DNA from: an uncultured Clostridia bacterium
GTDB lineage: Bacteria; Bacillota; Clostridia; Oscillospirales; Butyricicoccaceae
Assembly: GCA_944375715.1 (NCBI GenBank)
Contig: CALWAP010000001.1
Location: 62,001-126,000 of the forward strand
DNA length: 64,000 nt
Reading direction: 5' to 3'
A program made the translations under genes and the position numbers. The notes beneath the pieces were generated by a model. The model had not been told where the DNA came from and did not search any database. It saw only the letters and a program-made list of their open reading frames with translations. This document shows, in pieces, positions 1 through 42,439 of this stretch (positions are counted from its first letter, which is position 1; each line of letters opens with the position of its first letter).

Positions 1-587
1 AGCCCGCCTTTTGAATCATATACCGCTTCGGGCTGTTGCCTGAGCATTTCGCTTAGGCTCTCCATGGCCCTGTCATAATAATCGGCGCAGGCGGAATATC
101 TTTCTGAAAGCTCTTTTGACTTATATTTGAAATCAGGAAGGTATATGTCGATATGTCCTTCGGCCATTTTAAGGGTTCTGGGGTTTTCATAACCGCCGCT
201 GTTAAAGACAACAGGCAAACCCAGGTCCCCCGCCATATCCAGCGCCGACAGCACCTGGGGCATAAAATGGCCAGGCGTCACCAGATCTATATTCCGGCAG
301 CCCATATCCTTAAGCTCTTTGAATATTGAAGCCAACTCCCACTCGCTGACCTTTTTCCCCAGCTTTCCACGGCTGACACCGTAGTTCTGACAATATACGC
401 ATTTTAAAGGGCAGCCCGAAAAAAACACTGTTCCCGAGCCTTCTTCCATGCCTATGCATGGTTCTTCCCACATATGGCGTCCGTAGTAGGCGATCCTTAC
501 CTCTCGCCCTTCGCCGCATATGCCCGTTTTAACCGTCCTGTCGGCCCCGCAATTTCTTGGGCACAGGCCGCAGTTTGTCATTTCCAT
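1..587 (-). CDS. PflX-type radical SAM protein (3' end outside window)
   Basis: Only the first 195 codons are present; the gene runs off the left edge. The start is the ATG at 587, behind GGAGG. The N-terminus has a cysteine-rich segment (CGLCPRNCG, then a further Cys in GICGEG), followed by HMWEEP and then SGCPLKCVYCQNYG, which carries the radical SAM CxxxCxxC triplet for a [4Fe-4S] cluster. This layout matches the COG1313 group, homologs of pyruvate formate-lyase activase. Their substrate is not established, so the reaction is left open. It is divergent from nadE. Confidence 0.85.
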   Translation of the reverse strand, partial: MEMTNCGLCPRNCGADRTVKTGICGEGREVRIAYYGRHMWEEPCIGMEEGSGTVFFSGCPLKCVYCQNYGVSRGKLGKKVSEWELASIFKELKDMGCRNIDLVTPGHFMPQVLSALDMAGDLGLPVVFNSGGYENPRTLKMAEGHIDIYLPDFKYKSKELSERYSACADYYDRAMESLSEMLRQQPEAVYDSKGG

Positions 588-615
588 AACTTCCTCCTTC
601 TCCGCTCACGTTTGC

Positions 616-644
616 TTGACGCGCCTTGAAGCTGCATTTATAAT
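616..644 (+). promoter_or_regulatory. nadE promoter
   Basis: TTGACG (616-621) and TATAAT (639-644) are separated by 17 bp, 40 bp upstream of the nadE start. Confidence 0.75.
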
Positions 645-683
645 ATTTATTGTTCCAGATTTTTGTATAAAGGAGCCAAAAAA

Positions 684-2588
684 ATGAATTATGGTTTCAC
701 CAACGTCGCGGCCGCCTGCCCCAAACTCATAGTAGCTGACTGCGACTTCAATACTGACGAAATAATCCGACTTGCGAAAAAAGCCGAAAAGGACAAGGTT
801 TCCCTGCTGGTGTTTCCCGAACTGTGCATTACAGGGGCTACCTGCGGAGACCTTTTCCTCCAGCAGTGGCTTTTAAGCTCGGCTTTAAAGTCCCTTGAAA
901 GGATCCTGGAGGCCTCCCACTCCATAACGGCTGCGCTGGTAGTCGGGCTGCCGCTTCAAAGCGGCTCCCTCCTTTTCAACTGCGCTGCGGTAATTTTCCA
1001 GGGGGATATCCTGGGCGTCGTTCCGAAATCGCATCTTTCGGCCAGGGACCTTAGGTGCTTCTCCCCGGCCTGCCGCGCCCCCGGCTCGATAGAGCTTTTC
1101 GGGAAAAGCATACCCTTTGAAAAGGAGCTTATTTTCTCCTGCCTCCGCGACAGCCGTTTCAGCTTTGGCGTTGAGATAGGCAGCGACAACTCGGAGGTCA
1201 TACCTGCCTCCGCTAAGCTTTCGTTAAACGGCGCTTTTATTATAGCACATCCCGACTGCACCCCCGAAAAGGCGGGGAATGCCGAAATAAGGCTCAGCTC
1301 AACTGCGGCGCAAAGCGCAAGATGCGTCTGCGCCTATATAGAAGCCGGCTGCGCCATGGGGGAATCTACCACCGATGAGGTCTTTTCGGGCCGCTGCGCC
1401 ATATTTGAAAACGGCGGGCTGCTGGCCGAGGCCGGGGCGTTTTCCGAAAAGGAATTGCTGCCGGCCCAGATAGACCTGGATCTTCTTTCCCAAAGGCGTC
1501 TTTCCTCCGGCTTATTCGGCCAGGCGGAAAAGGCAGATGTCATAACATTTGACGCATTTGTAGAGTGCCGCGAGATAACAAGGAATATACCAAGAGACCC
1601 CTTTATGCCCTTTGACGGGGACAGTGCGGAAAGATTCTGCTTGGATATATTTGCCATGCAGGCCGCGGCTTTGAAAAAGCGTTTTGAGCATACACATTCC
1701 CAAAAGGCCGTTATCGGCATATCGGGCGGCCTTGACTCAACGCTGGCTCTTCTTGCGCTCTGCAAAGCCTTCGACATGATGGAAAAACCCAGAGCCGACA
1801 TAACGGCGGTCACAATGCCCTGCTTTGGAACGAGCCGAAGGACCAGGGACAACGCCGAAAAGCTCTGCTCGGGGCTGGGCATAACATTGAAAGAAATCAA
1901 CATCACGCAGACGGTACTGAGCCACTTCAGCGATATCGGCCAATCCCCCGAAGATCACGGCGTAGCCTTTGAAAACAGCCAGGCCCGGGAGCGCACCCAG
2001 GTCCTTATGGACATGGCCAACCAGCAAAATGGGCTGGTTATCGGCACGGGCGACCTTTCCGAGCTGGCTTTGGGCTGGGCCACCTATAACGGCGACCATA
2101 TGTCAATGTACGGCGTCAACGGCTCCATACCCAAAACCCTGGTGCGCCATCTGGTTTCCTTCTGGGCGGGAAGCTGCGAAAACAGCGATGTATCAGATGT
2201 ACTGCTTGATATCCTTGACACCCCCGTTTCGCCCGAGCTTCTCCCGCCAGAGGAGGGCAAAATCTCCCAGGCCACCGAAGACCTGGTGGGGCCCTATATA
2301 CTCCACGACTTTTTTATTTACCATACCCTTAAAAACGGGTTCGGGCCTGCAAAGGTGCTGGCAATGGCCCAAAAGGCTTTTGAAGGGCAGTATGACCGTG
2401 CCTTTATCCTCCGGTGGATGAAGGTCTTTTACCGCAGGTTTTTCTCCCAGCAGTTCAAGCGCTCCTGCATGCCCGACGGCGCCGATGTCACAGGGATTTC
2501 CCTTTCGCCGCGAGGCGGCTTCGCCATGCCCAGCGACGCCGTTTCCAGGCTGTGGCTCGACGAAGTGAACAGGCTGGAAGCCGAATAA
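684..2588 (+). CDS. nadE: NAD+ synthetase, two-domain type with altered glutaminase site
   Basis: It makes NAD+ from deamido-NAD+, ATP and a nitrogen donor. The start is ATG 684, because AAGGAG (about 670) sits just before it; a TTG at 663 lies upstream of that site. At 634 residues it is the usual length for the fused form: an N-terminal nitrilase-fold glutaminase (about 5-270) and a C-terminal synthetase with the ATP-pyrophosphatase loop SGGLDS (347-352). In the glutaminase, Glu46 (FPEL) and Lys115 (VPKS) are kept. The position of the nucleophile, Cys in the family motif EICED, reads EIGSD here (Gly166). The synthetase half looks intact, so ammonia-dependent activity is the likely outcome (inference). 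Confidence 0.93.
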   Translation: MNYGFTNVAAACPKLIVADCDFNTDEIIRLAKKAEKDKVSLLVFPELCITGATCGDLFLQQWLLSSALKSLERILEASHSITAALVVGLPLQSGSLLFNCAAVIFQGDILGVVPKSHLSARDLRCFSPACRAPGSIELFGKSIPFEKELIFSCLRDSRFSFGVEIGSDNSEVIPASAKLSLNGAFIIAHPDCTPEKAGNAEIRLSSTAAQSARCVCAYIEAGCAMGESTTDEVFSGRCAIFENGGLLAEAGAFSEKELLPAQIDLDLLSQRRLSSGLFGQAEKADVITFDAFVECREITRNIPRDPFMPFDGDSAERFCLDIFAMQAAALKKRFEHTHSQKAVIGISGGLDSTLALLALCKAFDMMEKPRADITAVTMPCFGTSRRTRDNAEKLCSGLGITLKEINITQTVLSHFSDIGQSPEDHGVAFENSQARERTQVLMDMANQQNGLVIGTGDLSELALGWATYNGDHMSMYGVNGSIPKTLVRHLVSFWAGSCENSDVSDVLLDILDTPVSPELLPPEEGKISQATEDLVGPYILHDFFIYHTLKNGFGPAKVLAMAQKAFEGQYDRAFILRWMKVFYRRFFSQQFKRSCMPDGADVTGISLSPRGGFAMPSDAVSRLWLDEVNRLEAE

Positions 2589-2597
2589 AGCATTTTC

Positions 2598-2624
2598 AAA
2601 AGGCCCCATAGGGGGCCTTTTTTT
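2598..2624. terminator. Bidirectional terminator between nadE and the Gx transporter gene
   Basis: AAAGGCCCC and GGGGCCTTT are separated by a short loop and followed by seven T on the + strand. The reverse strand reads a hairpin followed by TTTT, so it can also serve the convergent gene. Confidence 0.85.
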
Positions 2625-3132
2625 ATTTTCTGTCAAAATCGGTTTTATCCCTGCGGTCTATAACAAAACCCGCGCACAGACCTGTAAATATGCCCGTCAC
2701 GATACCGGAAACAGTCAGAACGGGAAGGTATACCATAAGGGACGGGGTGCCTGTCACGGCTACCGCCGCCAGAAGCTGAAAAAGGTTATGCACCGCGGCC
2801 GCCAGGGCTGAACATATCCATATCCTATGGCTGTCAAAAAAACGCCTTAAAAGTACAGTCAGGCCGAAAGAGGCAAGGCCTCCGCTGAGGCTGTAGATCA
2901 AAGCGGAGGGCTGGGCGGTAAACACCGATCCCAAAATCACCCTTGCCAGAAGCACCGCCAAGCCGTCTCCGGCCCCAACGGCAAATACGGCATAAACCGT
3001 AAATATATTGGCCAGCCCCAGCTTTATCCCCGGCACGGGGGCCAAAGGAGGCAGCTGAGCCTCTATTACATACACAACAAGGGCCGCCGATATCAAAAAA
3101 GCGTCCCTCACCATTCTTTTTGTCCTGCCCAT
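2623..3132 (-). CDS. Gx transporter family membrane protein
   Basis: This 169-residue, very hydrophobic protein has about five membrane segments and a basic tail. It matches the Pfam family once named heptaprenyl diphosphate synthase component I, now called Gx transporter. Its ATG directly abuts the apbE stop (TAG-ATG), so the two genes are translationally linked. In Firmicutes such genes often sit beside apbE and NusG-domain-II genes, and a role in supplying a flavin-linked or quinone-linked redox system has been proposed. The substrate is not shown by the sequence. Confidence 0.8.
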   Translation of the reverse strand: MGRTKRMVRDAFLISAALVVYVIEAQLPPLAPVPGIKLGLANIFTVYAVFAVGAGDGLAVLLARVILGSVFTAQPSALIYSLSGGLASFGLTVLLRRFFDSHRIWICSALAAAVHNLFQLLAAVAVTGTPSLMVYLPVLTVSGIVTGIFTGLCAGFVIDRRDKTDFDRK

Positions 3133-4134
3133 CTATCCCTCCGATTTTATAACCAAAACCTCAAGGCCGCTTTCGGGCTCGAAAGAGCCTTCCAGGCCCT
3201 CGGTGATATAAATCGTACCCTCGCTGTCCAAAAGCAGCATTTCAAAGCCGCCCCACTGCCGCCAAAGCTCCTGGGCCCTTTCCCTTCCCATGACGAACAC
3301 CGCTGTGGAAAGGCCGTCGCACAGCGTGCCGTCAGAGCCCACTATTGTGACTGATGCAAGACCGCTGTCGGCGGGATATCCCGTTTTGGGGTCAAGTATA
3401 TGCCAATATATCTGTCCATCCTGCTCAAAATACCGCTCATACCCTCCCGAGGTGACAACGGCCATGTCCCTTATCGACAATACTCCCAAAATACCGCCGT
3501 CAGGCGATTTCACGCCAACGCGCCACTCTCCCCCGTCCGGCCGGGAGCCTACCGTCTGGATATTTCCGCCCAAGTCCAACACGGCCGAACTTATACCCTC
3601 ATCTTTGAGCAGTTTTGAAAGCACCGCCCCCGTATATCCCTTTGCTGTGCTCCCAAGGCTTATTTCGGCGCCGCCTTTGAGCCACGCCGCGCCATCTTTG
3701 AGCCATGCCTTGTCATACCCCACAAGGGACATAAGCTGCGCAATCTCCTCTTCGTCTGGCACACGGTAATCGCCGGAGATAAACCCCCATGCCTTTGTCA
3801 GCGGGTATACCGTTATATCCAGCGCCCCGTCAGTCATACGGCATATTTCCAGCGACTGCCTTAACAGCTCGCAGGTGTCAAAAGACAGCTCGGCGCTGCC
3901 GTTTTGGTTAAGGAGACTTATCTCGCTGCCCGTCTTTTCGGAGGAAAAGAGGCCTTCCAGCCGCTGCACCTCCTGCGTCAGATTTTGCAGCGTCTTATTG
4001 TCCCCGCCGTAAACCGTCATGGTCATGACGGTATCCATGGCAAAAACAGTTATGCTTTGTTCCTTCTGCTCTGAGCATCCGCAGAGCAGAAGGAGGGAAA
4101 AACATACCAAACATACACATGCCGCCTTTTTCAT
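3133..4134 (-). CDS. apbE: FAD:protein FMN transferase, lipoprotein
   Basis: ApbE attaches FMN through a phosphoester bond to Thr/Ser in target proteins such as Rnf or NQR subunits, on the outer face of the membrane. The start is ATG 4134 with GAAGGAG in front; upstream in-frame codons are not expected to be used. The first 25 residues form a signal peptide ending in the lipobox LLCGC, followed by FAMDTVMTMTVYG, typical of the family start, and an internal LGSTAKGYTGA and TSGGYERYF region. The 333-residue length is normal. It forms an operon with the Gx transporter. Its flavoprotein target is not in this window. Confidence 0.92.
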   Translation of the reverse strand: MKKAACVCLVCFSLLLLCGCSEQKEQSITVFAMDTVMTMTVYGGDNKTLQNLTQEVQRLEGLFSSEKTGSEISLLNQNGSAELSFDTCELLRQSLEICRMTDGALDITVYPLTKAWGFISGDYRVPDEEEIAQLMSLVGYDKAWLKDGAAWLKGGAEISLGSTAKGYTGAVLSKLLKDEGISSAVLDLGGNIQTVGSRPDGGEWRVGVKSPDGGILGVLSIRDMAVVTSGGYERYFEQDGQIYWHILDPKTGYPADSGLASVTIVGSDGTLCDGLSTAVFVMGRERAQELWRQWGGFEMLLLDSEGTIYITEGLEGSFEPESGLEVLVIKSEG

Positions 4135-32571: not shown

Positions 32572-32628
32572 AATTATATACCTGTGTACCGATATATCAA
32601 CGACCATTTTGTGAAAGGAGAAATCATT

Positions 32629-33075
32629 ATGGAAAAACTTTACGGAAGAGATCTTATGATAGACGGCTGTAACTGCGCCCAGGCCGTTTTGGTATCGCTT
32701 TGCCATGATATTGGCCTTTCTGAGGATATGGCCATGAAGCTTTCATGCCCTTTGGGCGGTGGCTGCCGCGCAGGTGAAATATGCGGAACTGTTACAGGGG
32801 CGCTTCTGGCCCTGGGCTTTGTCACCGGCAACACCGACAGACATGATAAGGATGCAAGGGAAGAAGCTTACAAGAAATATATTGAGTTTGACCGCAGGTT
32901 CAAAGAGAAATACGGCAGCCTGGTCTGCCGCGAGATTCTTGGATGCGACACTTCGACCCCCGAGGGCAAGGAGCACATGAAGAATCATCCGGAACTCAAG
33001 CTGAGGTGCCATGAAAGGGTAGATGGGGCAATAGCCCTCGTAAAGGAAATGCTGGCTGAGGAAAAAAGCAAATAA
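32629..33075 (+). CDS. C_GCAxxG_C_C family redox protein
   Basis: The 148-residue protein starts at ATG 32629 behind AAAGGAG. It shows the family's spaced cysteines: GCNCAQAVL near residue 16, GGGCRAGEICGTVTGALLALG near 50, then CREILGCD and RCHERV. These proteins are thought to bind metal or do thiol redox chemistry, often near electron-transfer genes, but no reaction is proven. The -35 palindrome suggests regulated expression. The MFS gene follows after 69 bp. Confidence 0.85.
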   Translation: MEKLYGRDLMIDGCNCAQAVLVSLCHDIGLSEDMAMKLSCPLGGGCRAGEICGTVTGALLALGFVTGNTDRHDKDAREEAYKKYIEFDRRFKEKYGSLVCREILGCDTSTPEGKEHMKNHPELKLRCHERVDGAIALVKEMLAEEKSK

Positions 33076-33144: not shown

Positions 33145-34431
33145 ATGGGACTTTACAAGGAATTGCGGCGCAGCCTTAGGGCTCATATGGCCTTTGAGGA
33201 GCCGAACACCCTCCTCATTATGTCAGAGGCCCTGTTTGCCGGTATGGTGCTTCAGCTGACAAATCCGTTTTATCAGCTGTTCGCAACAGCCATGGGAGCT
33301 GACAGCGTTGCTGTTGGCCTTATCAGCTCTCTGCCTTCGTTCTGCGCTCTATTTGTGCTGCTGCCCGCCTCATTATACATAGACCGAGTCAAGGACAAAA
33401 AACATTTTTTATGCACGGCCATCACAATATGCGGCGTGATACTTCCCCTAGTCGCCCTGTCACCTTTTCTGGGTGACAGAGGATATTGGTTCTTTATCAT
33501 AGGCATTTCCCTTTGGAACATACCCTATATCTGCTATACCGTATCATGGCAGAGCTATTTTTCCGACCTTTATCCCCCTGCCAAAAGGGCTATGCCTTAT
33601 GCCAGAAGACAGATGATGACAAACGCCGTGCCTGTCGTCACTATAATGGCTGGCGGCCTTATTTTAAGCTATCTGTGCAAAAGCCAACAGCAGAAGATCC
33701 TGGCATATCAGATATTTTATTTTGTCGCCTTTTTGGCCTCGATATTCCAGCGCAGATCTATAATGAAGACCCATGTCGGTGAGGACTTTGTTCCAAAGCG
33801 TCCTCCCGAGGGTACGTCGCCCATAATAGAGTTCATAAATGCAATAAAGCAGCTTAAAAACAATCCCAGGTTCTGCATATTCCTGGTGCTGCTCTTTATT
33901 TTCTACTTTTCATGGCAAATGGCCTGGCCGATGTTCTTCATCTTTCTTGTCAAGGAGGTCGGATTTAACGAGGCTACAAAAAGTCTTTTTGATGTTGTGT
34001 CCTATCTTTCTGTCACATTGATGTCCACCTGGTGGGGCAAGCGTATTGAAAAATACGGCCCCCGCGGCTCAACTGTAATTGGACTTTTCAGCTGCGCCCT
34101 GGTCCCTGCCTGGACGGTGATTACCCGCAACTTCTGGGTCATATTTGTCAGCTATATTTTCAGCGGCGGCACCTCCCCCGGTTTTCAGCTGGGACTTTTC
34201 AACGACATGTTGGAAAACCTGCCCGAGGAAAATAAATCCCTTAACATCGGCATTTACAACATGGTCATGCAGATATCAAACTTTGTGGCCCCTTTAGTAG
34301 GCGTTGCCCTTTACACTGCCATAGGTTCGGTAAATACCATGTATATTTCCAGCGCCTGCCGCTTTGGTGCCGCGTGCCTCTTTGCCCTGCGCTTTATCCT
34401 GCTTCGCAAAAAGAGCAGACAGCCGGTTTAA
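33145..34431 (+). CDS. MFS transporter
   Basis: The 428-residue protein has twelve predicted helices. The loop YIDRVKDKK between helices 2 and 3 fits the MFS A-motif, and a long central loop (about 205-235) separates the two halves. It resembles clostridial MFS proteins with the start ...MAFEEPNTLLIMSEALFAGM, whose substrate is unknown. The terminator after it is shared with the convergent cluster. Confidence 0.85.
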   Translation: MGLYKELRRSLRAHMAFEEPNTLLIMSEALFAGMVLQLTNPFYQLFATAMGADSVAVGLISSLPSFCALFVLLPASLYIDRVKDKKHFLCTAITICGVILPLVALSPFLGDRGYWFFIIGISLWNIPYICYTVSWQSYFSDLYPPAKRAMPYARRQMMTNAVPVVTIMAGGLILSYLCKSQQQKILAYQIFYFVAFLASIFQRRSIMKTHVGEDFVPKRPPEGTSPIIEFINAIKQLKNNPRFCIFLVLLFIFYFSWQMAWPMFFIFLVKEVGFNEATKSLFDVVSYLSVTLMSTWWGKRIEKYGPRGSTVIGLFSCALVPAWTVITRNFWVIFVSYIFSGGTSPGFQLGLFNDMLENLPEENKSLNIGIYNMVMQISNFVAPLVGVALYTAIGSVNTMYISSACRFGAACLFALRFILLRKKSRQPV

Positions 34432-34449
34432 CTCAAATCAAGCTCAAAA

Positions 34450-34479
34450 AACAAGGGCCTTGCGGCCCTTGTTTTTTAT
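34450..34479. terminator. Bidirectional terminator
   Basis: AACAAGGGCC and GGCCCTTGTT around TTGC, with T-run on + and AAAAA (T-run on -) on the other side. Confidence 0.9.
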
Positions 34480-34751
34480 TGCGCCAGCAGCATAAAGTCC
34501 CCGGCAATACCCAGAAATAACCTTCCTCCAAAATCGTAAACCGAGCAGACCTTATAATCCTTTCTTATCTGCCCTCCGCTTTCAAGGCTGTGCCGTATCT
34601 TATCGCCTGCCGGAAGTTTTTCCAAAAATGCGCTTTCTGACTGCCAATTACCTTCCTCATAATAATCCCCAAACTCATCCATTGAAGGATTTGTTTTATA
34701 AAGAGTAACGGCCAGCGCCGCCGTCAGCGTAAGGATCAAAAACTTTTTCAT
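34476..34751 (-). CDS. Small exported protein, last gene of the actin/tubulin-like cluster
   Basis: The 91-residue protein has an N-terminal hydrophobic signal or anchor (FLILTLTAALAVTLY) and then NPSMDEFGDYYEEG. The NPS-x-x-x-FG-DYY pattern recalls the DUF4359 family. There is no enzyme motif. It is 15 bp after the preceding gene, so it belongs to the same transcript. Confidence 0.6.
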   Translation of the reverse strand: MKKFLILTLTAALAVTLYKTNPSMDEFGDYYEEGNWQSESAFLEKLPAGDKIRHSLESGGQIRKDYKVCSVYDFGGRLFLGIAGDFMLLAQ

Positions 34752-34766
34752 GTTTTCCCGCCTTTC

Positions 34767-35528
34767 TCATATGCTTTCGGTCAAAATACTGCCTTTTCTC
34801 AACAGCACATACGTGCCGTCCATTCCTTTTGACAGGGTGGCCGGACCTCCTCCACGCCTTAATACGCAGGCGTCGCCGCCAAAAGAGGTCATATCGAAAA
34901 GGAATCGGAACTGTTCGTTTTTCAGCTCCTCTTTTCCGACCTTCTTACCATACCAATGTTCAGATGGCTCCAGAAAGTATGCGTTTCCCGCCTGGTAAAC
35001 CGTGAAGGTTCCTTTGCGGCTTATTATCCTCATTATCGGGGCCTGACCAAACATTATGTCCTGGCGGTTGGCTATCTCTGCATATCCAACCATCTCCCCT
35101 GACTTTAAAGTCGCTTCCGGATAGGCCGCTTTTGAATCGGAAGGAGCTTTGGAAGGATTAAAGCTTTCCTCCCAGCCTTTGAAAAAATCGGCTTTTTCCC
35201 GAATGCCTTCAAGCGGCTTCTGTTTTTCAGCAATACCCGCTTCCTCATCAGCCAGCTTAATCCCCAGGGGCTTTTCTTCCACTTTTGGACGCACATCGTT
35301 TTTTCTGTCCTTTTTCTGAGTCCTGTCGTTAAAGCCTCCCCAGCCATCCAGCACCTTCAATACTCGCGAGGACACCACCAGGATGCAAAGGGTACACAAA
35401 AGGATATTGGTCAGTACCTGCTGGCCCCTGATGCCGTCCCCCATGGACGGCACCAGGCGGCATGTAAGAACTACGGATATTACGGCCAGAAGGCATACGC
35501 CAAGTCTCAAAAGGGCCAATCTCTTCAT
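34767..35528 (-). CDS. Two-helix membrane protein of the actin/tubulin-like cluster
   Basis: The 253-residue protein has two N-terminal membrane helices (about 6-22 and 37-53), a highly charged linker (about 65-130) and a C-terminal globular region with AEIANRQDIMFGQAPIMRI and a Gly-rich RRGGGPATLSKGMDGTYVLLRKGS. I recognise no family. ATG 35528 overlaps the stop of the actin-like gene; GTG 35537 is an alternative start. The soluble part should face the cytoplasm if the two helices form a hairpin, which would let it meet the cytoskeletal-type proteins (inference). Confidence 0.7.
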   Translation of the reverse strand: MKRLALLRLGVCLLAVISVVLTCRLVPSMGDGIRGQQVLTNILLCTLCILVVSSRVLKVLDGWGGFNDRTQKKDRKNDVRPKVEEKPLGIKLADEEAGIAEKQKPLEGIREKADFFKGWEESFNPSKAPSDSKAAYPEATLKSGEMVGYAEIANRQDIMFGQAPIMRIISRKGTFTVYQAGNAYFLEPSEHWYGKKVGKEELKNEQFRFLFDMTSFGGDACVLRRGGGPATLSKGMDGTYVLLRKGSILTESI

Positions 35529-38500
35529 GCCCTCCACCCTCTCTCGCCGCGCTGCTTTATCAGCAGGTTACGGTTTGCGATATTAAAGGCCACGAGATAA
35601 TGCATCATGCGGCGGTTAAGCTCGCCATTATCGGCTACCATCGGGAAGCTCTCCAATGTCTCGCTGACAAGGGACTCGAAGCTGTCAAAGCCGCCCAGCG
35701 TTTCGGGCGTATAAGCCAGCAGTTCATATACGCTGGATATGCCGAAACATTCGTCCTCATCCTGTTCCTCGCCTATCAGCGCCTGTTCCGAAAGCCCCCT
35801 TACAAACTCGGCGTAGGTATGCTCATTCACACCGGCCGCAACACATCTTCCGGCCAGCAGTTTTGCGTCGCTCAGCTTGACCCTGCCGCTTGCGGCAGCG
35901 CACTTCAGCTCCTTTTCAAGGCCGGGCGCCGAGCCTTCCTGCAGCGACGCCATAGCTTCCTTAAGTATCCTTGCGGCCATGACGGAATCGGCATCTCCTG
36001 CCTGGGGCGTATATACGGCCTTTTTAAAATAGGCCTCTATCATGCCCCTGGATACCTCCGGTTTACCGTCGGAGGCCACAAAGGCCGCCTTTACGGTCTT
36101 GCCGCTGACATCTGCCACATACTGCCAGACCCTGCGGTCGAAATCAGGATCTGCTTCCAGCACGCCCTTCAAAAACAGAGAGCCGCTGCCGACAAAGGCA
36201 ATTACCGCCGATGAGCCTTCTATATAGCAGGCCGCCGATGCGATTATATCAACTATAGGCAGTGTCCACAGCTGGTGCCAATGGGTTATGAAACTGTCGC
36301 CGGCCGGCATGCTCCATTTTTCGGTGCGGTAAAGCTGCTCCAAAAGCTTGCGGTTGGAATTATCGTATACACAGCTTATCATATCGGCAACACTGTTTTG
36401 ATCCATAACCCTTTCAAGGCTTTGGGATATACCCCCGGCCAGCTCGGCGCCGTCGCCCGAACGGACCCTGCCGACGCCGGGGAAAATGGAATTGATTATC
36501 GACTCCGGTCCCGCCTTGCCCCACATATCCAAAGCCTGTTTGTGGGGCCTTCTCATAAGGGCAAGACCGGCGCTGAGCTGAGATATCATCGAAGCATAGC
36601 TGTAAGACTGCGACATGACCGTCTCGCCGCCGGCACTTACATCCACATCAAAGCTCAGACCTCCCAGGTCACCTACGACCAGACAGGCGTGCTCGGGTAT
36701 TGGCAGACCGTCGGGCCTGACCTTCCTCACATATTCACCCGCAGCCAGGCTTTCGGGATAAACATTCGCCTTCAGCTCGACGCCGCTTTCTTCCTCGACC
36801 ATTTTCAAGGCCTCGGTAAATACCAATGTGCTCCTTAACCCTTTGGGATAGGCGAAAAGCACCCGTATTTTGCTTTGTCCCCTGGACAAAAGCCAAAGGC
36901 TCCCGAGCTTGATGTATGTAGCTATGGCCATAATATAGGCCTGGCGGTTAGCTGCGGCCCTGTCGGCATTCTGATCGGTATCTGAGGCCTTCATATTGAT
37001 GAAAAGATCCCTTCCATAGCTTTTATCGGTTATCATCCTTGCCAGCTCGGAAGAACCGTAAGGAATGAGCCTGCCGCTGCCGTTGGGGAAGTTAAGAAGA
37101 GCGGGAGATGAGGATATCCTGAAACGCTGCACCGCCGTGGGATGGAGGCTTCCCTTTATATCGGGAAGCATGATGGCCGAGCATATGTTATCAAACTGCT
37201 CTTTGGACATGGGAGTGACCGGCTGGCACATATCGTCGGCCGCAATTTCCAAAGGCACTGAGTCTGGATCGTTGAGGGTATCAACAATAACTTCGGCATG
37301 TGTGGTCGTGGTGCCGCAGTCAAGGGAAATGACACCCTCGCCGCCGCATTTTACCAGGCCTGCCTGGGGCTTGGGAGGGAAGGTCACCAGGTTTACAAGC
37401 TCGGTCATATCCTCTGCCATTACTGTAACATACCTTGTGGCGACGCCTGTTTTGTAAAGCACCCATTCGGCCATGACCGAACCTATCTGGAAGCCCTCGC
37501 ATGTGCTGCCGTTGGGCCTGAAGGTCTCGGGCAGCGGGGCCAGGGCGGGCATTTCCATGCCGATATCGTCAAGATTGTTGACCGACTGCGCCATGTAGTT
37601 TGTCGCAAGCAGGATCCTTCCCTGCCAGCTTTGATCGTCTATGCCATCCATATGGTACTGCTGGGCTGCATGGGGGATATGGCTTAAATCAATCATTTCG
37701 CCTATCTGGTAAAAACGGCTTCGAACCACCGTTTCGTTGCCGTCGCGGGCCGTGACTGTCACATTTACTCCCCTGATGAGGCATCCGAAACGGTCGTCAT
37801 CGGGCGACTCTTCAAAATCCACGGCCATTATCCTCAGGCCCGAGTCCAGCAGCTGACGGCTGAGCGGAGGGATAAAGCTCAGAGTGGCAACACTCACATC
37901 CCCGCCTCCGCGGCGCCAGCCTATTTCCTTGACGCTGCCCATAAAGGCGGCGTCGCAGCACTGCATGACGGCCAGCTTGGGGGTGAAGAACTCGGGCAGG
38001 CCTCCTGCATACCCCGCCGGGGTCATGCTCAAAAGCTTGTCGGCCCCTATAAAGGCCCTGACCTCGGCGTCGGCATCTGATGCCTGGGAAAGGCCCGAAA
38101 GCCTGCGGGCCTCGCTGTCGCTGATGACGTCGGCATACTGCGCCAAATACTTCGCCATGCCGGGATACTCCTTTGCAGGATAGCAGCGTCCCAAAAGCAT
38201 AATCAGTCTCTTGCGCTGGTCATCGGCCAAAAACGGCATGGGGTCAAGCCATCTGGCCTCCCCTCTGGCCACCTTGAGGTATGGCTGGTCGAGTTTTTCA
38301 CCCAGCTCTGCGGTTATGCCGGCGGCGGGCACCAAGCCCAAATCGCCGTAATAAAGGGCCAGAAGATCGCTGCCGCAGACAAGGGCGCAGTATTTATCCC
38401 TGTGGTTCATATCATTTTTAAGCCTGTCGGCTATCACGCCGGTAAAGCTGTCCTCCCTGCCGAAGGGGAAAACCGCCAGCCTGAGGATATCGCCTCTGCA

Positions 38501-38773
38501 TATCCTCAAAGCGTGAAGCCCTGCTATGGCATATATCTCCTCGGTAAAGCCTTCGCCTTTAAGGGCCGCCCTGGCCGTCTGATAAGGCCTGTTAATGCCT
38601 ATTTCCAGCTGGCTTCTGCGCACAGGGTCCACATTGTCGATGCCCTCGGCCTCTTCCAAAGCTTTTGTCAGGATATCGGACGGCACGACGGCAAAGCCGC
38701 CTTCCTGGCTCAAACCGGCCGAAAGGATCTCGTTGCGCTTATCGTCAAGGTGCATATTCATTTTCTTTGCCAT
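35525..38773 (-). CDS. Giant actin/Hsp70-like ATPase
   Basis: The 1082-residue protein has an actin-fold ATPase in the middle: phosphate-1 loop ISLDCGTTTTHAE (483-493), a connect-like YPESLAAGEYV (672-682), phosphate-2 loop VVGDLGGLSFDVD (699-711) and an adenosine-type loop FVGSGSLFLKG (860-870). The order and spacing fit Hsp70/actin/FtsA-type ATPases. The N-terminal 470 residues and the last 200 match nothing I know. It has no signal or membrane helix, so it is cytoplasmic. It lies 16 bp after the tubulin-like gene. Some bacterial Hsp70-like proteins of about 1000 residues (SrfB type) have a similar size, but I cannot confirm kinship. Confidence 0.75.
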   Translation of the reverse strand: MAKKMNMHLDDKRNEILSAGLSQEGGFAVVPSDILTKALEEAEGIDNVDPVRRSQLEIGINRPYQTARAALKGEGFTEEIYAIAGLHALRICRGDILRLAVFPFGREDSFTGVIADRLKNDMNHRDKYCALVCGSDLLALYYGDLGLVPAAGITAELGEKLDQPYLKVARGEARWLDPMPFLADDQRKRLIMLLGRCYPAKEYPGMAKYLAQYADVISDSEARRLSGLSQASDADAEVRAFIGADKLLSMTPAGYAGGLPEFFTPKLAVMQCCDAAFMGSVKEIGWRRGGGDVSVATLSFIPPLSRQLLDSGLRIMAVDFEESPDDDRFGCLIRGVNVTVTARDGNETVVRSRFYQIGEMIDLSHIPHAAQQYHMDGIDDQSWQGRILLATNYMAQSVNNLDDIGMEMPALAPLPETFRPNGSTCEGFQIGSVMAEWVLYKTGVATRYVTVMAEDMTELVNLVTFPPKPQAGLVKCGGEGVISLDCGTTTTHAEVIVDTLNDPDSVPLEIAADDMCQPVTPMSKEQFDNICSAIMLPDIKGSLHPTAVQRFRISSSPALLNFPNGSGRLIPYGSSELARMITDKSYGRDLFINMKASDTDQNADRAAANRQAYIMAIATYIKLGSLWLLSRGQSKIRVLFAYPKGLRSTLVFTEALKMVEEESGVELKANVYPESLAAGEYVRKVRPDGLPIPEHACLVVGDLGGLSFDVDVSAGGETVMSQSYSYASMISQLSAGLALMRRPHKQALDMWGKAGPESIINSIFPGVGRVRSGDGAELAGGISQSLERVMDQNSVADMISCVYDNSNRKLLEQLYRTEKWSMPAGDSFITHWHQLWTLPIVDIIASAACYIEGSSAVIAFVGSGSLFLKGVLEADPDFDRRVWQYVADVSGKTVKAAFVASDGKPEVSRGMIEAYFKKAVYTPQAGDADSVMAARILKEAMASLQEGSAPGLEKELKCAAASGRVKLSDAKLLAGRCVAAGVNEHTYAEFVRGLSEQALIGEEQDEDECFGISSVYELLAYTPETLGGFDSFESLVSETLESFPMVADNGELNRRMMHYLVAFNIANRNLLIKQRGERGWRA

Positions 38774-38789
38774 TTTGTTCTTCCCCCTT

Positions 38790-40382
38790 CTATATCGAAA
38801 GCTGCCTGTAAAACTCGACCAGGAAATCGGCTGCCTGAGCGCCCCTGCTTATCCTTGACACCGCTTCGTTATAGGCCGAACCGACCGTCACATCGGTCCT
38901 GACTATATTAGCTGTGCCGTCTCCCTTTGTATATTCTGTGAGCCTGTCGGGGTCAAATGCATTGACCTCCTTTTCGGGAACATCACCATTAAGTATGCTT
39001 TTTATGGCATAAGGGTTAAAAAGGGTAGTGTCTTCGGCTGTAAGTGTGACAACTCCGCCGCTCCAATCGGTACCGCTGGCCCCTATTTCCATAAATGCGC
39101 GCAAGGCGTCTTCTGCAATGTTTATCATAGCCTGTATCGGGGTTATGACCCGTTTTTCCAACATATCAGCCGGCGCGTTTTTGCCCAGCATTTTTACCAC
39201 ATGGGGTGCTACGCTGACCTCCTGGTGGGAAACTACAGTCATGGGCTTGAGTTTGAGCACGACGGCGGCACAGAACCTGAGGTAATTGACATAGGTCTCC
39301 ATAAAACTGCTGTCGGAAAGGTGGCTCCAGCCGAACCTCCTTTCATCGTTGGTTATGGGAACAAAGACCCTGTAACCATCCATGGTGTGGTCAAAGGCCG
39401 TTTCGCCGCTGTCTTTTATGGCAGCAAGGCAGAGCATATCTCCCAGGCAGTAATGTCTGCCCTGGTCGCCGCCGCGGGCATAGCGGTCATAGCAGAGGGC
39501 AGGCGCGGCGTTGACAAAATAGGTGCGGTTGACGCATTTGTCGGCACCGCTTGCCCTGCGGTTGCGGTACCAATTAAGCACCCTCAGGTCATCTTCGGTG
39601 CAGTCCAGCTTGAAGCCGCTGTCGCCATCCTCTCCTGACGGATGCACGGCATAGCCCAAAAGCACTATCGAATGGATCCTAAGATTATCCATCAGCTGGT
39701 CGTTGGCCCTGAGGCAGCGGTAATATATGTGCTGGGAAAGGCTGTTTAAGAATGTGGCTCCCGTTGCCCCCGTGGCCGAACCTGTTATGCGTACAAGCAC
39801 CCTCTTGCCGTCCAGGAAGGCCCTGAGGATGCGGCTGAGTATGTCTTCCACGCTTTCCACCTTGAATACCGAACTCTGCCATATTTCCACCAGCCTGGGC
39901 TTTCCCTGGCCGCCCACCTCCCTGGGGAGAAGCGACTCCTCTTCGGTAAGAACGGCGTTCTGCATATGCTTTGACGCCAGGTCGTCATCGGCTATCATAT
40001 CATTTATCGTCGTCTGTTCCCCCTTGGAGCCTTCCAGGCGGGTCGAAATGGCGGCGTTAATTATGTTGTTGTAGCCGAAAGCCCTGCCGTTTTCGTCGGC
40101 TATGGCCAAAGCATTGAGCCTGCTTTCGGTAAGAGACATCTTCTCGATGCCCTTGGAGCCTGCGTCCATATCAATGACATAGGTGGTCGGCATTGTCAGT
40201 TTGGGCGTGCCTTCCTTAGCGGCCAAAAGCGCCTCGGCCGGTGAGGTTATGCAGTGAAGGGCGCCGATGGCTCCTCCGCCTCCGCCGGCATAAATATCAA
40301 AGCAGACAAGATTGTCCCTGCGGCTTTCAACAAACTCCAAAGCCGCGTCATTTTTCCTTCTGAACATATTGAATATTGCCAT
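38790..40382 (-). CDS. Tubulin/FtsZ-like NTPase (divergent)
   Basis: The 530-residue protein has a Gly-rich first loop, YAGGGGGAIGAL (31-42), as in the T1 loop of FtsZ, and RITGSATGATGATFL (198-212), which fits the tubulin signature GGGTGSG in order and context. Between them lies VIDMDAGSKG (69-78), possibly a T3-like loop. The spacing T1 to T4 of about 165 residues is longer than in FtsZ and closer to tubulin and tubulin-like families. The C-terminal half is unassigned. No GTPase T7 Asp motif could be placed with certainty. Function not established. Confidence 0.6.
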   Translation of the reverse strand: MAIFNMFRRKNDAALEFVESRRDNLVCFDIYAGGGGGAIGALHCITSPAEALLAAKEGTPKLTMPTTYVIDMDAGSKGIEKMSLTESRLNALAIADENGRAFGYNNIINAAISTRLEGSKGEQTTINDMIADDDLASKHMQNAVLTEEESLLPREVGGQGKPRLVEIWQSSVFKVESVEDILSRILRAFLDGKRVLVRITGSATGATGATFLNSLSQHIYYRCLRANDQLMDNLRIHSIVLLGYAVHPSGEDGDSGFKLDCTEDDLRVLNWYRNRRASGADKCVNRTYFVNAAPALCYDRYARGGDQGRHYCLGDMLCLAAIKDSGETAFDHTMDGYRVFVPITNDERRFGWSHLSDSSFMETYVNYLRFCAAVVLKLKPMTVVSHQEVSVAPHVVKMLGKNAPADMLEKRVITPIQAMINIAEDALRAFMEIGASGTDWSGGVVTLTAEDTTLFNPYAIKSILNGDVPEKEVNAFDPDRLTEYTKGDGTANIVRTDVTVGSAYNEAVSRISRGAQAADFLVEFYRQLSI

Positions 40383-40396
40383 TTAACTTACCTCCC

Positions 40397-40831
40397 TTAA
40401 ATCTCCCTGCATATCTGCATTGCCGCGTAAAGAAGCCCCGATGCCAAAGCAGCCGCAGCTACGCCTATCACCGTCGAGAACATCAAAGCTCCCCAATCGT
40501 CAAAACCTATATTAACTATGGCAAGGACTGCGTACAGCGCTATCGATATAACGGCCGTCATGGTCATCGTGCTGCTGCACTTCATGTCGACCAGCCCGGG
40601 ATTGATGGCCTGTTCCATCTTCTTTGTGAGCCTCAAATACCACGCAATAAAGGCCACGGTGGACACAAGGCCCATCAGCATCATTATGGCCGTCATCGAG
40701 CTGACGAAGTTCTCGCTTACATCAAACACCCTGACTACCGGCCTTATGACAAGCCCCGATATGGCCATCATGCCCAGGAGGGTGACCGCGACGCCCTTCA
40801 AAACATTCCCAAAAAACTTACTGTTGCTCAT
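40397..40831 (-). CDS. Four-helix membrane protein of the actin/tubulin-like cluster
   Basis: The 144-residue protein has four predicted membrane helices (about 12-32, 46-64, 88-107, 115-137) with a short charged loop (LRLTKKMEQAINPG) in the middle. No family recognised. It lies 12 bp after the lipoprotein gene and 14 bp before the tubulin-like gene. Confidence 0.75.
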   Translation of the reverse strand: MSNSKFFGNVLKGVAVTLLGMMAISGLVIRPVVRVFDVSENFVSSMTAIMMLMGLVSTVAFIAWYLRLTKKMEQAINPGLVDMKCSSTMTMTAVISIALYAVLAIVNIGFDDWGALMFSTVIGVAAAALASGLLYAAMQICREI

Positions 40832-40843
40832 GTGAGTTCCTCC

Positions 40844-42355
40844 CTATCTTTCAATCGTTATGGTTATGTGTTCCACAATTTTCTCTCTTGTTACCGATCC
40901 GCCCAAAAGCCTGTCAATATCGGCAAGGTCAAGGGTCTTTGAAAGTATGTCGGTGGCCCCGGCCTTCCACTTAAGGCGGTTTGCGGCGCTGCCCGGCTCC
41001 AAAAGCCCGCTCAGCGACTGAAATTCGTAAATACCCGCCGAAAAACCGTCTATCCAATCGCTGCTTGCGACCTCGGCCATTATGTCAAACTCTATTTGGT
41101 ATCTGCCCTTCGGCATATCGCTTATGCTGAGCATGACGCTGACAACGGGGGTTTTTGATATCTTGTTCAAAGCCTCGCTGCGCTCGGCACCTTCCTTCCA
41201 GGCATCCAAATGCTCCAAAACCTCGATATAAAGCTCCGCATCAAGCTTTTCTTCTCCGGCCTTTTTGTCAAGAGGCGTTACTTCAAGGCCTTCGATATAA
41301 AGGCCGCCCTCTATAAACGGGCTGTCTTCGGATATATCCGATATAAGCGACAGCTGTACGCTGTCCTTGTGCCCAAAGGAGGTGTGGGACGAGCTGTATT
41401 CAAAATCCATCCCTCCCAGGTTTTCGGCATTAACAGTATAATTCAGTGTCTCGGCGTTGCCGCCGCTTATCTTCCTGTCCAGGCTCTGAACGGCCCTGAA
41501 TTCCGAAAGGCCCGTATAGGACGGATACTTTTCATCGTTCACATAAAGGGCTTTGTTCACCTTAATGCTGCCGTCAAGCTGAGTCTCAAACCTCTGGCAA
41601 AACCCTTCTACCTCACTTACAGGACCAATGGCCAGAATATAGAAAGCGGCACTGCCGCGGTAGCCCTCAACCGTCTTGACAGAGCTCCCGTTTGTCGTGT
41701 AGGAGGGAAAGCTCATATTTCCACTGAAACCGTCGCATGAGAAACCGTAAAGCACGGCCTCCACCCCATCCCTTTGGGTAAGCACCTTCGACAGTTCGGC
41801 CGCTATCTGCGAACCTCCGAACTCATTTTCCATAAGATCGGTAAAAATGATGTTCAGGTTTCCGCAGTCCAAAACCCCGTCCTCGAACAAAAGCCCCAAA
41901 GGCCCTTTGTCGTCCAGCTTTGGCACCTCGCCGTTCTGGGCGAAGGTGTAAAGGCTTTTATCGGAAAAACAGGTCCTGAGTGCGTTGAACTCCAGCTCCT
42001 GCCAATGCAGAAAGCCTACCAGATCGCCCGTTTCCTCGTCGGTGCGGCCGTTTCTTATCCGCAGGACATATCCTTTGGGCGACCTTAGGGTCTCGGCCTG
42101 AAAAACGGCATGGGCTATGCTCAGGTAGCCGGCGCTGGAAACAAAGCTGTAAGCCGTCTGGGTATTGTCATAAAATATGCTGTCTGTCCCCGTATAAACG
42201 AACTCTTCCTCGTCGTTTTCCAGCGGTTTTTGGACTTCTGTATCATTGTCGTCCCTTCCGTTTGAGGAAAAGACCCCGAAATCGATACCGCATCCCGAAA
42301 GAAAAATCAGGGACCATGCCGCAAGCAGTGCCGCCCATCTTTTTATTTTCTTCAT
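40844..42355 (-). CDS. vWA-like lipoprotein, first gene of the actin/tubulin-like cluster
   Basis: The 503-residue protein starts at ATG 42355 (AAGGGGGA in front) with a signal peptide ending in the lipobox FLSGC. The exposed part begins with IFYDNTQTAYSF near residue 60, which resembles the metal site DxSxS/DxTxT of von Willebrand A domains, and later has LNIIFTDLMENE (about 170), the usual position of the third vWA metal Asp. The C-terminal half is beta-rich. A vWA fold is inferred from these short motifs only. It is followed at 12 bp by the four-helix protein. Confidence 0.6.
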   Translation of the reverse strand: MKKIKRWAALLAAWSLIFLSGCGIDFGVFSSNGRDDNDTEVQKPLENDEEEFVYTGTDSIFYDNTQTAYSFVSSAGYLSIAHAVFQAETLRSPKGYVLRIRNGRTDEETGDLVGFLHWQELEFNALRTCFSDKSLYTFAQNGEVPKLDDKGPLGLLFEDGVLDCGNLNIIFTDLMENEFGGSQIAAELSKVLTQRDGVEAVLYGFSCDGFSGNMSFPSYTTNGSSVKTVEGYRGSAAFYILAIGPVSEVEGFCQRFETQLDGSIKVNKALYVNDEKYPSYTGLSEFRAVQSLDRKISGGNAETLNYTVNAENLGGMDFEYSSSHTSFGHKDSVQLSLISDISEDSPFIEGGLYIEGLEVTPLDKKAGEEKLDAELYIEVLEHLDAWKEGAERSEALNKISKTPVVSVMLSISDMPKGRYQIEFDIMAEVASSDWIDGFSAGIYEFQSLSGLLEPGSAANRLKWKAGATDILSKTLDLADIDRLLGGSVTREKIVEHITITIER

Positions 42356-42385: not shown

Positions 42386-42413
42386 ATTATAAGATGGCGC
42401 ATTTTGCTTGTAA
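42386..42413 (-). promoter_or_regulatory. Promoter of the actin/tubulin-like cluster
   Basis: On the reverse strand, TTACAA (42413-42408), 16 bp, TATAAT (42391-42386), between the sucD terminator and the lipoprotein gene. It gives the cluster its own transcription. Confidence 0.55.
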
Positions 42414-42439
42414 GAAGCCCCTTGGTTTTTTAAAGTCCG

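Follow-up and report, generated by a model that had tools for sequence, protein, structure and literature searches.

The stretch analysed here, a 64-kb window (the whole 64,000 nucleotides) of contig CALWAP010000001.1 from an uncultured Clostridia bacterium of the Butyricicoccaceae, carries on its minus strand, from 42355 down to 34476, six open reading frames (ORFs) that make up a compact operon. An earlier note on this DNA had described such an operon, in which an actin-type and a tubulin-type nucleoside triphosphatase (NTPase) are joined by membrane and surface proteins, and the place and order of its genes, separated by 16 bp or less or overlapping, were borne out by the ORFs. The intergenic gaps measure 12, 14, 16 and 15 bp, an ATGA overlap joins the gene 4 stop to the gene 5 start, and a Shine-Dalgarno-like stretch precedes every one of the six starts. 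Homologues were recovered from three other genomes, designated G243, G240 and G241, and the features at the locus are as follows.

42386 to 42414, minus strand: promoter-like site CTTACA-17-TATAAT, preceding gene 1 at a fitting position
40844 to 42355, minus strand: gene 1, exported lipoprotein of 503 residues (ORF; lipobox LSGC; homologues in G243, G240 and G241)
40397 to 40831, minus strand: gene 2, four-helix membrane protein of 144 residues (ORF; hydropathy; same position in G243, G240 and G241)
38790 to 40382, minus strand: gene 3, probable tubulin/FtsZ-superfamily NTPase of 530 residues (ORF; homologues at 38-45% identity; profile tests)
35525 to 38773, minus strand: gene 4, protein of 1082 residues with an actin/MreB/Hsp70-type ATPase domain (structure, profile and motif matches)
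34767 to 35528, minus strand: gene 5, two-helix membrane protein of 253 residues (ORF; hydropathy; homologues in G243 and G241)
34476 to 34751, minus strand: gene 6, small protein of 91 residues with an N-terminal signal or anchor (ORF; homologue at the same position in G243)
34445 to 34478, minus strand: intrinsic terminator with a 15-pair stem, between the operon and a convergent MFS gene

A search of 87 family genomes with the 1082-residue protein retrieved four carriers. These are related gut-type Clostridia species of the genus to which the window belongs, and within it carriage is patchy (four of seven genomes). Profiles of gene 3 and gene 1 returned the identical four of 87, a perfect co-occurrence of genes 1, 3 and 4, and the expectation of the earlier note that homologues of the operon genes occur together thus survived. 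All six genes are present in the same order in G243 (locus L007, a metagenome-assembled genome (MAG) of an uncultured Clostridia bacterium), genes 1-4 are followed by the contig end in G240 (L008), and in G241 the operon is split over two contigs (L005, from a goat colon MAG, and L081), with genes 1 and 2 and the start of gene 3 on one and the rest of gene 3 and genes 4 and 5 on the other. Identity to the window proteins is 34-45% for the three large proteins, with 40-45% for the lipoprotein in G243 and G240, 22-33% for the two membrane proteins, with 22-23% for gene 2 in the same two genomes, and 54% for the small protein, whose homologue lies at the same position in G243. Since other species encode homologues in the same order, at 22-54% protein identity, the six genes are a conserved unit and not chance ORFs. 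By sequence comparison, the products are real proteins under selection with unusually fast evolution, since they are kept across species and yet are far more diverged than the flanking proteins, most core members of which are 70-85% identical among congeners.

Within the genomes, plasmids, phages and viral contigs sampled, relatives of the actin-like protein were found neither in 291 genomes of the class nor on plasmids and its true orthologues in none of 398 genomes of the phylum, relatives of the tubulin-like protein neither in 295 genomes of the order nor in phages, and relatives of either in no viral contig. The profile of gene 4 matched in 23 of the 398 phylum genomes at the phosphate-2 motif only, and the nine proteins read out were MreB-like; these short matches were rejected as orthologues.

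The ATPase domain of gene 4 spans residues ~478-926 and is flanked by ~477 N-terminal and ~155 C-terminal residues without assignment. In the AlphaFold2 model, which was built from three sequences and has a mean predicted local distance difference test (pLDDT) score of 42, with ~50-69 in much of 600-940, MreB/Mbl was the top Foldseek match (E 6e-7), and VIA-align superposed residues 478-917 on MreB with a Z score of 16.8 over 271 residues at 4.8 Å. The MamK filament matched at Z 16.5, and each of the 50 VIA-align rows listed belonged to the actin/Hsp70/sugar-kinase superfamily or was a complex that includes a member of it, a strong fold match despite the low model confidence. In hhalign the family profile aligned with MreB at its phosphate-2 motif (E 1e-6), and the phosphate-1, connect, phosphate-2 and adenosine motifs follow each other in the right order. 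Invariant in four species are D485, G487 and T489 of phosphate-1 (DxG.T), E674 of the connect motif and D702, G704, G705 and D709 of phosphate-2 (DxGGxxxD); G862 and G864 of the adenosine motif (GxGS) are invariant in three, the G240 sequence stopping before it. Model comparison and motifs thus confirm an actin/Hsp70 (ASKHA)-superfamily ATPase domain in gene 4, as the earlier note had proposed, and the conserved residues suggest that the domain is an active ATPase. Pfam reached this family only marginally, with MreB at E 0.06 and FtsA (PF14450) at E 0.18, each in one homologue. Membership in SrfABC/SrfB, considered for this protein of ~1000 residues, was dropped, as neither gene 4 nor its homologues reached SrfB (PF07520) in Pfam at E<=1.

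Gene 4 might also be no filament former but an Hsp70-type switch regulating the assembly or turnover of a lipoprotein or membrane complex, with gene 3 as a non-polymerising Rossmann-like regulator, a chaperone-type or signalling role to which Hsp70-type chaperones and sugar kinases lend some weight, as they superpose on the gene 4 model at Z 14.7-15.8, within about 2 of MreB. It is also consistent with an ATPase domain embedded in 1082 residues with large extra regions, unlike simple filament formers. On the other hand, no Hsp70, DnaJ or GrpE family was matched by Pfam in the operon, and both the best profile match and the top fold matches of gene 4 are MreB, so this role is judged rather unlikely.

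The assignment of gene 3 depends on more distant resemblance. The window protein contains, in order, a T1-like loop GGGGGAIGAL, a DxD motif after S2, a T3-like GGxGxPR and a T4-like GSATGATGA, and glycine motifs in this tubulin-like order are kept in all four species. The T1-like loop after the first strand is clear and reads YAGGGGGAIGAL, FAGGQGNVIGAL, GFGGSGSFILAL and IGGGGSGGAAAA in the four homologues, the next strand is followed by D[ML]DA (NTD in FtsZ, DTD in Tubulin_2) and then by a T3-like GG[QY]Gxx[RK], and the T4-like loop, G[SA][AC][TI]GA[TM]G in the family, departs from GGTG[ST]G. Against the FtsZ profile the N-terminal segment aligned in register with a score reached by 0 of 60 column shuffles, and the T3-T4 segment did the same against Tubulin_2 (0/60); of the several pairings of segment and template that were run, these two scored best. 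Set against Tubulin_2, the N-terminal segment aligned to T4 instead and 5 of 60 shuffles reached its score, and earlier profile tests with fewer sequences were reached by 4/150 and 12/150. In an ordered motif-chain test the family profile was equalled by 2 of 200 shuffles with mixed Tubulin_2/FtsZ blocks and by 8 of 200 with Tubulin_2 alone, one decoy family coming close behind, which makes this test suggestive only.

Several observations weigh against a tubulin-like gene 3. Tubulin_2 (PF13809) was matched at E<=1 by no member of the gene 3 family, the FtsZ family (PF00091) did not match gene 3 in the window's own genome, and the T4 loop of the window protein is degenerate (GSATGATGA vs GGTG[ST]G), a feature that also suits the chaperone-type role above. 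With sequences taken singly, the motif chains of P0002 and two homologues scored above the decoy mean and below the best decoys, and the AlphaFold2 model (mean pLDDT 37) gave no fold match, its lack of tubulin rows being uninformative at that quality. Global hhalign yielded no alignment in these tests. Gene 3 could accordingly be an unrelated alpha/beta protein with glycine-rich loops, in which case the operon would comprise an actin-type ATPase with membrane and surface partners. This is the less likely outcome, if one to be kept in view, as the motif order is correct in four species and no shuffle scored as high as either of two separate segments against profiles of the tubulin superfamily. 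For the tubulin/FtsZ-like protein of the earlier note, motif order and segment scores are suggestive only, and Pfam, the structure model and the single-sequence decoy comparison do not bear it out; on sequence grounds gene 3 is a probable member of the tubulin superfamily, and a tubulin fold is likely. The window's own genome contains no Tubulin_2 member by family search and has a separate standard FtsZ (G000:C4). In L081 (G241:C144, 238-1077), the tubulin-like ORF of G241 passes, as judged by eye, from 'GGQGRSKLAESW' into a DUF4143-type ATPase-like tail; this ORF is probably an assembly chimera, because the remainder of the G241 gene lies on contig C288.

The lipoprotein encoded by gene 1 had been called vWA-like, and this holds weakly at best. 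It carries a motif resembling the metal ion-dependent adhesion site (MIDAS), DN[ST]QT, as well as a TD.MEN motif, and in a comparison with four clostridial exported proteins, which were called vWA by their DxSxS motif and one of which passes Pfam VWA_2, the best profile match fell on the MIDAS (DNSQT vs DNSGS) and was reached by 0 of 150 shuffles. Two findings detract from the assignment: no Pfam vWA model matched gene 1, and the MIDAS aspartate is a glutamate in G241. The exported proteins come from five sampled clostridial Tubulin_2 loci (L053-L057), in four of which an exported MIDAS-type (DxSxS) protein lies directly upstream of the Tubulin_2 gene; the actin-type phosphate-1 motif, the one actin feature scanned for, was found in none of the five. 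These loci offer a contextual parallel with the window operon, and the shared neighbourhood of Tubulin_2 and an exported MIDAS protein speaks against gene 3 being unrelated to tubulins. Two of the five also encode a protein of ~650-670 residues and a large membrane protein downstream, and those checked fell below the Pfam cut-off. As for the small proteins, hydropathy bears out the four membrane helices proposed for gene 2 and the two proposed for gene 5; gene 2 has a conserved A[IV]NPG loop, and in gene 5 the two helices are followed by a linker and a conserved C-terminal domain.

In three of the four carriers (G243, G240 and G241) a flotillin (SPFH) gene adjoins the lipoprotein gene, at the following positions beside the operon.

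L007, 3332-4828: flotillin gene of G243
L008, 20-1525: flotillin gene of G240
L081, 3875-4237: flotillin gene of G241

The G243 protein matches Pfam Band_7 and Flot, and flotillin was not found in the three operon-free congeners. The genome of the window likewise yielded no flotillin, which counts against the machine proposed below. Between G243 and G240 there is a strong contrast in rate, flotillin being slow (89% identical) beside the adjoining large operon proteins (41-45%) and the four-helix protein (23%).

The flanking MFS gene is retained in three congeners, beside PurE or other shared genes, without the operon at that place. The operon and the MFS gene are convergent in the window, whereas in G243 the operon shares a strand with the C_GCAxxG and MFS genes and lies upstream of them, and this difference in orientation and position between the two genomes indicates that the operon moved or was inserted anew within the same neighbourhood. 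Base composition resembles that of the neighbours (53.1% guanine plus cytosine in the operon, 51.6-52.5% in the flanks), as the earlier note had said. The data are in keeping with its further statement that the operon does not look newly acquired, but the distribution is patchy: beside the same flanks the operon is missing from three congeners, and in G243 it is placed differently. A prophage or plasmid origin was dropped for lack of matches and for a composition like that of the flanks.

Such a distribution, with four of seven genomes of the genus as carriers, absence beside the same flanks and divergence far above that of the flanking genes, would fit a conflict system, that is, a surface-exposed, fast-evolving module guarding against phage or rival bacteria. 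The library scans give this little backing: PADLOC matched none of the six genes, PHROGs matched nothing above noise, and no toxin, nuclease or effector domain occurs among them, which leaves a defensive or interbacterial function improbable. Pfam and NCBIfam likewise returned no family match for any of the six, and since the profile tests for each failed, the operon is filed under none of Tubulin_2, FtsZ, SrfB, vWA or PADLOC. The six-gene set matches no catalogued system among the libraries searched, and the only established family membership is that of gene 4 in the actin superfamily. All six families lie outside the annotation libraries searched, and routine annotation would therefore miss the system.

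Among known systems, the ftsA-ftsZ pair of the dcw cluster is likewise a single locus that encodes one actin-type and one tubulin-type protein, both acting at the membrane. Genes 3 and 4 as strict cell-division paralogues of FtsZ and FtsA were dropped, because gene 3 lacks the PF00091 signature and a standard FtsZ is encoded elsewhere in the genome. In addition, gene 4 has 1082 residues and fold matches to MreB as well as FtsA, the dcw cluster has no lipoprotein partner, and the window operon is dispensable in congeners. MreB/Mbl, which the ATPase domain of gene 4 matches best in both structure and profile, differs in lacking the long N- and C-terminal extensions. The magnetosome gene set resembles the present one in pairing an accessory actin-like protein, MamK, with an accessory tubulin-like protein, FtsZm, for a membrane structure. 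There, however, the two belong to separate operons, with MamK in mamAB, and neither protein is unusually large; moreover, Pfam and NCBIfam linked no gene of the six to a named magnetosome family. FtsZm is part of the mamXY operon (PMC4902198).

The vWA-FtsZl1 operons, which encode tubulin-like proteins together with secreted vWA proteins and for which a role in membrane remodelling was proposed, were described by Makarova and Koonin in 2010 (PMC2875224). They resemble the window operon, with its probable tubulin-like gene 3 and at best weakly vWA-like gene 1, in having a cytoplasmic tubulin-like gene beside an exported or membrane vWA gene and other membrane-protein genes, the presence of a normal FtsZ in the genome and long inserts between the T1-like and T4-like loops (PMC2875224). 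The window operon differs in that gene 3 lacks a PF13809 match, gene 1 lacks a vWA model match and no P-loop GTPase, kinase or OmpA partner is recognisable; it has an actin-type ATPase, which the main text of PMC2875224 does not include in those operons. The assertion of the earlier note that no system of this composition had been described overlooked ftsA-ftsZ, MamK/FtsZm and the operons of tubulin-like and secreted vWA proteins (PMC2875224). The novelty lies in the combination, within a single operon, of an outsize accessory actin-type protein, a tubulin-like protein and surface partners, all from unregistered families and found, as sampled, in four species of one genus.

The locus is thus a real, coherent and unannotated module of narrow distribution with one firm and one probable cytoskeletal NTPase. 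The explanation favoured here, tentatively and at somewhat under an even chance, is that it encodes one membrane-anchored, nucleotide-driven cytoskeletal machine, akin by analogy to both vWA-FtsZl1 and FtsA-FtsZ yet identical with neither. In such a machine, the actin-like ATPase of gene 4 and the tubulin-like NTPase of gene 3 would come together in the cytoplasm, probably with one as filament and the other as adaptor, as in FtsA and FtsZ. The small membrane proteins of genes 2 and 5 would anchor both NTPases at the membrane and relay force or signal to the outer-face lipoprotein of gene 1 and the small exported protein of gene 6, and in most carriers the machine would probably sit at flotillin membrane microdomains. 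Its likely task would be to shape or organise the envelope locally, through membrane remodelling, the formation of vesicles or the assembly of surface complexes, rather than to divide the cell, and the operon would be accessory, given that the genome encodes a standard FtsZ elsewhere and that there are congeners lacking the six genes. Polymerisation, a physical complex and the task itself are all suggested here by analogy with these known systems. Somewhat more doubtful than the machine as such, though a real possibility, is the fuller proposal of an undescribed accessory cytoskeleton which unites an actin-type and a tubulin-type NTPase of new families, spans the membrane with a lipoprotein and flotillin microdomains and is restricted to a single clostridial genus.

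Among nucleotide-driven filaments, actins and tubulins form the two great families, and to our knowledge few bacterial cases are known in which both serve one dedicated task, namely division and magnetosomes. Should the proposed machine exist, it would provide a compact, cloneable six-gene system in which the interplay of the two filament types at a membrane could be studied. The membrane-remodelling role that Makarova and Koonin proposed for vWA-tubulin operons (PMC2875224) would moreover gain an actin-type partner.

With regard to transcription, the earlier note had given the operon its own promoter and a shared terminator. The terminator stands and, with its 15-bp stem, is a strong one; a promoter ahead of gene 1 is plausible only, since 11 consensus promoter sites were found in the region vs 7.8 expected, which is no excess over chance. 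The surrounding MFS and C_GCAxxG neighbourhood (window 33145-34431 and 32584-33075, respectively) is a variable site in the genus, where congeners have the operon, other genes or another order next to these two. A further copy of part of genes 3 and 4 was met in L009 (CALUXW010000054.1), positions 1-3343 of which are 99.6% identical to window 36392-39734 (13 of 3343 bases differ). It represents a second strain of the window species; the contig is labelled as a Candidatus Gastranaerophilales MAG and is therefore a contig of the window's Clostridia species binned into a foreign genome.

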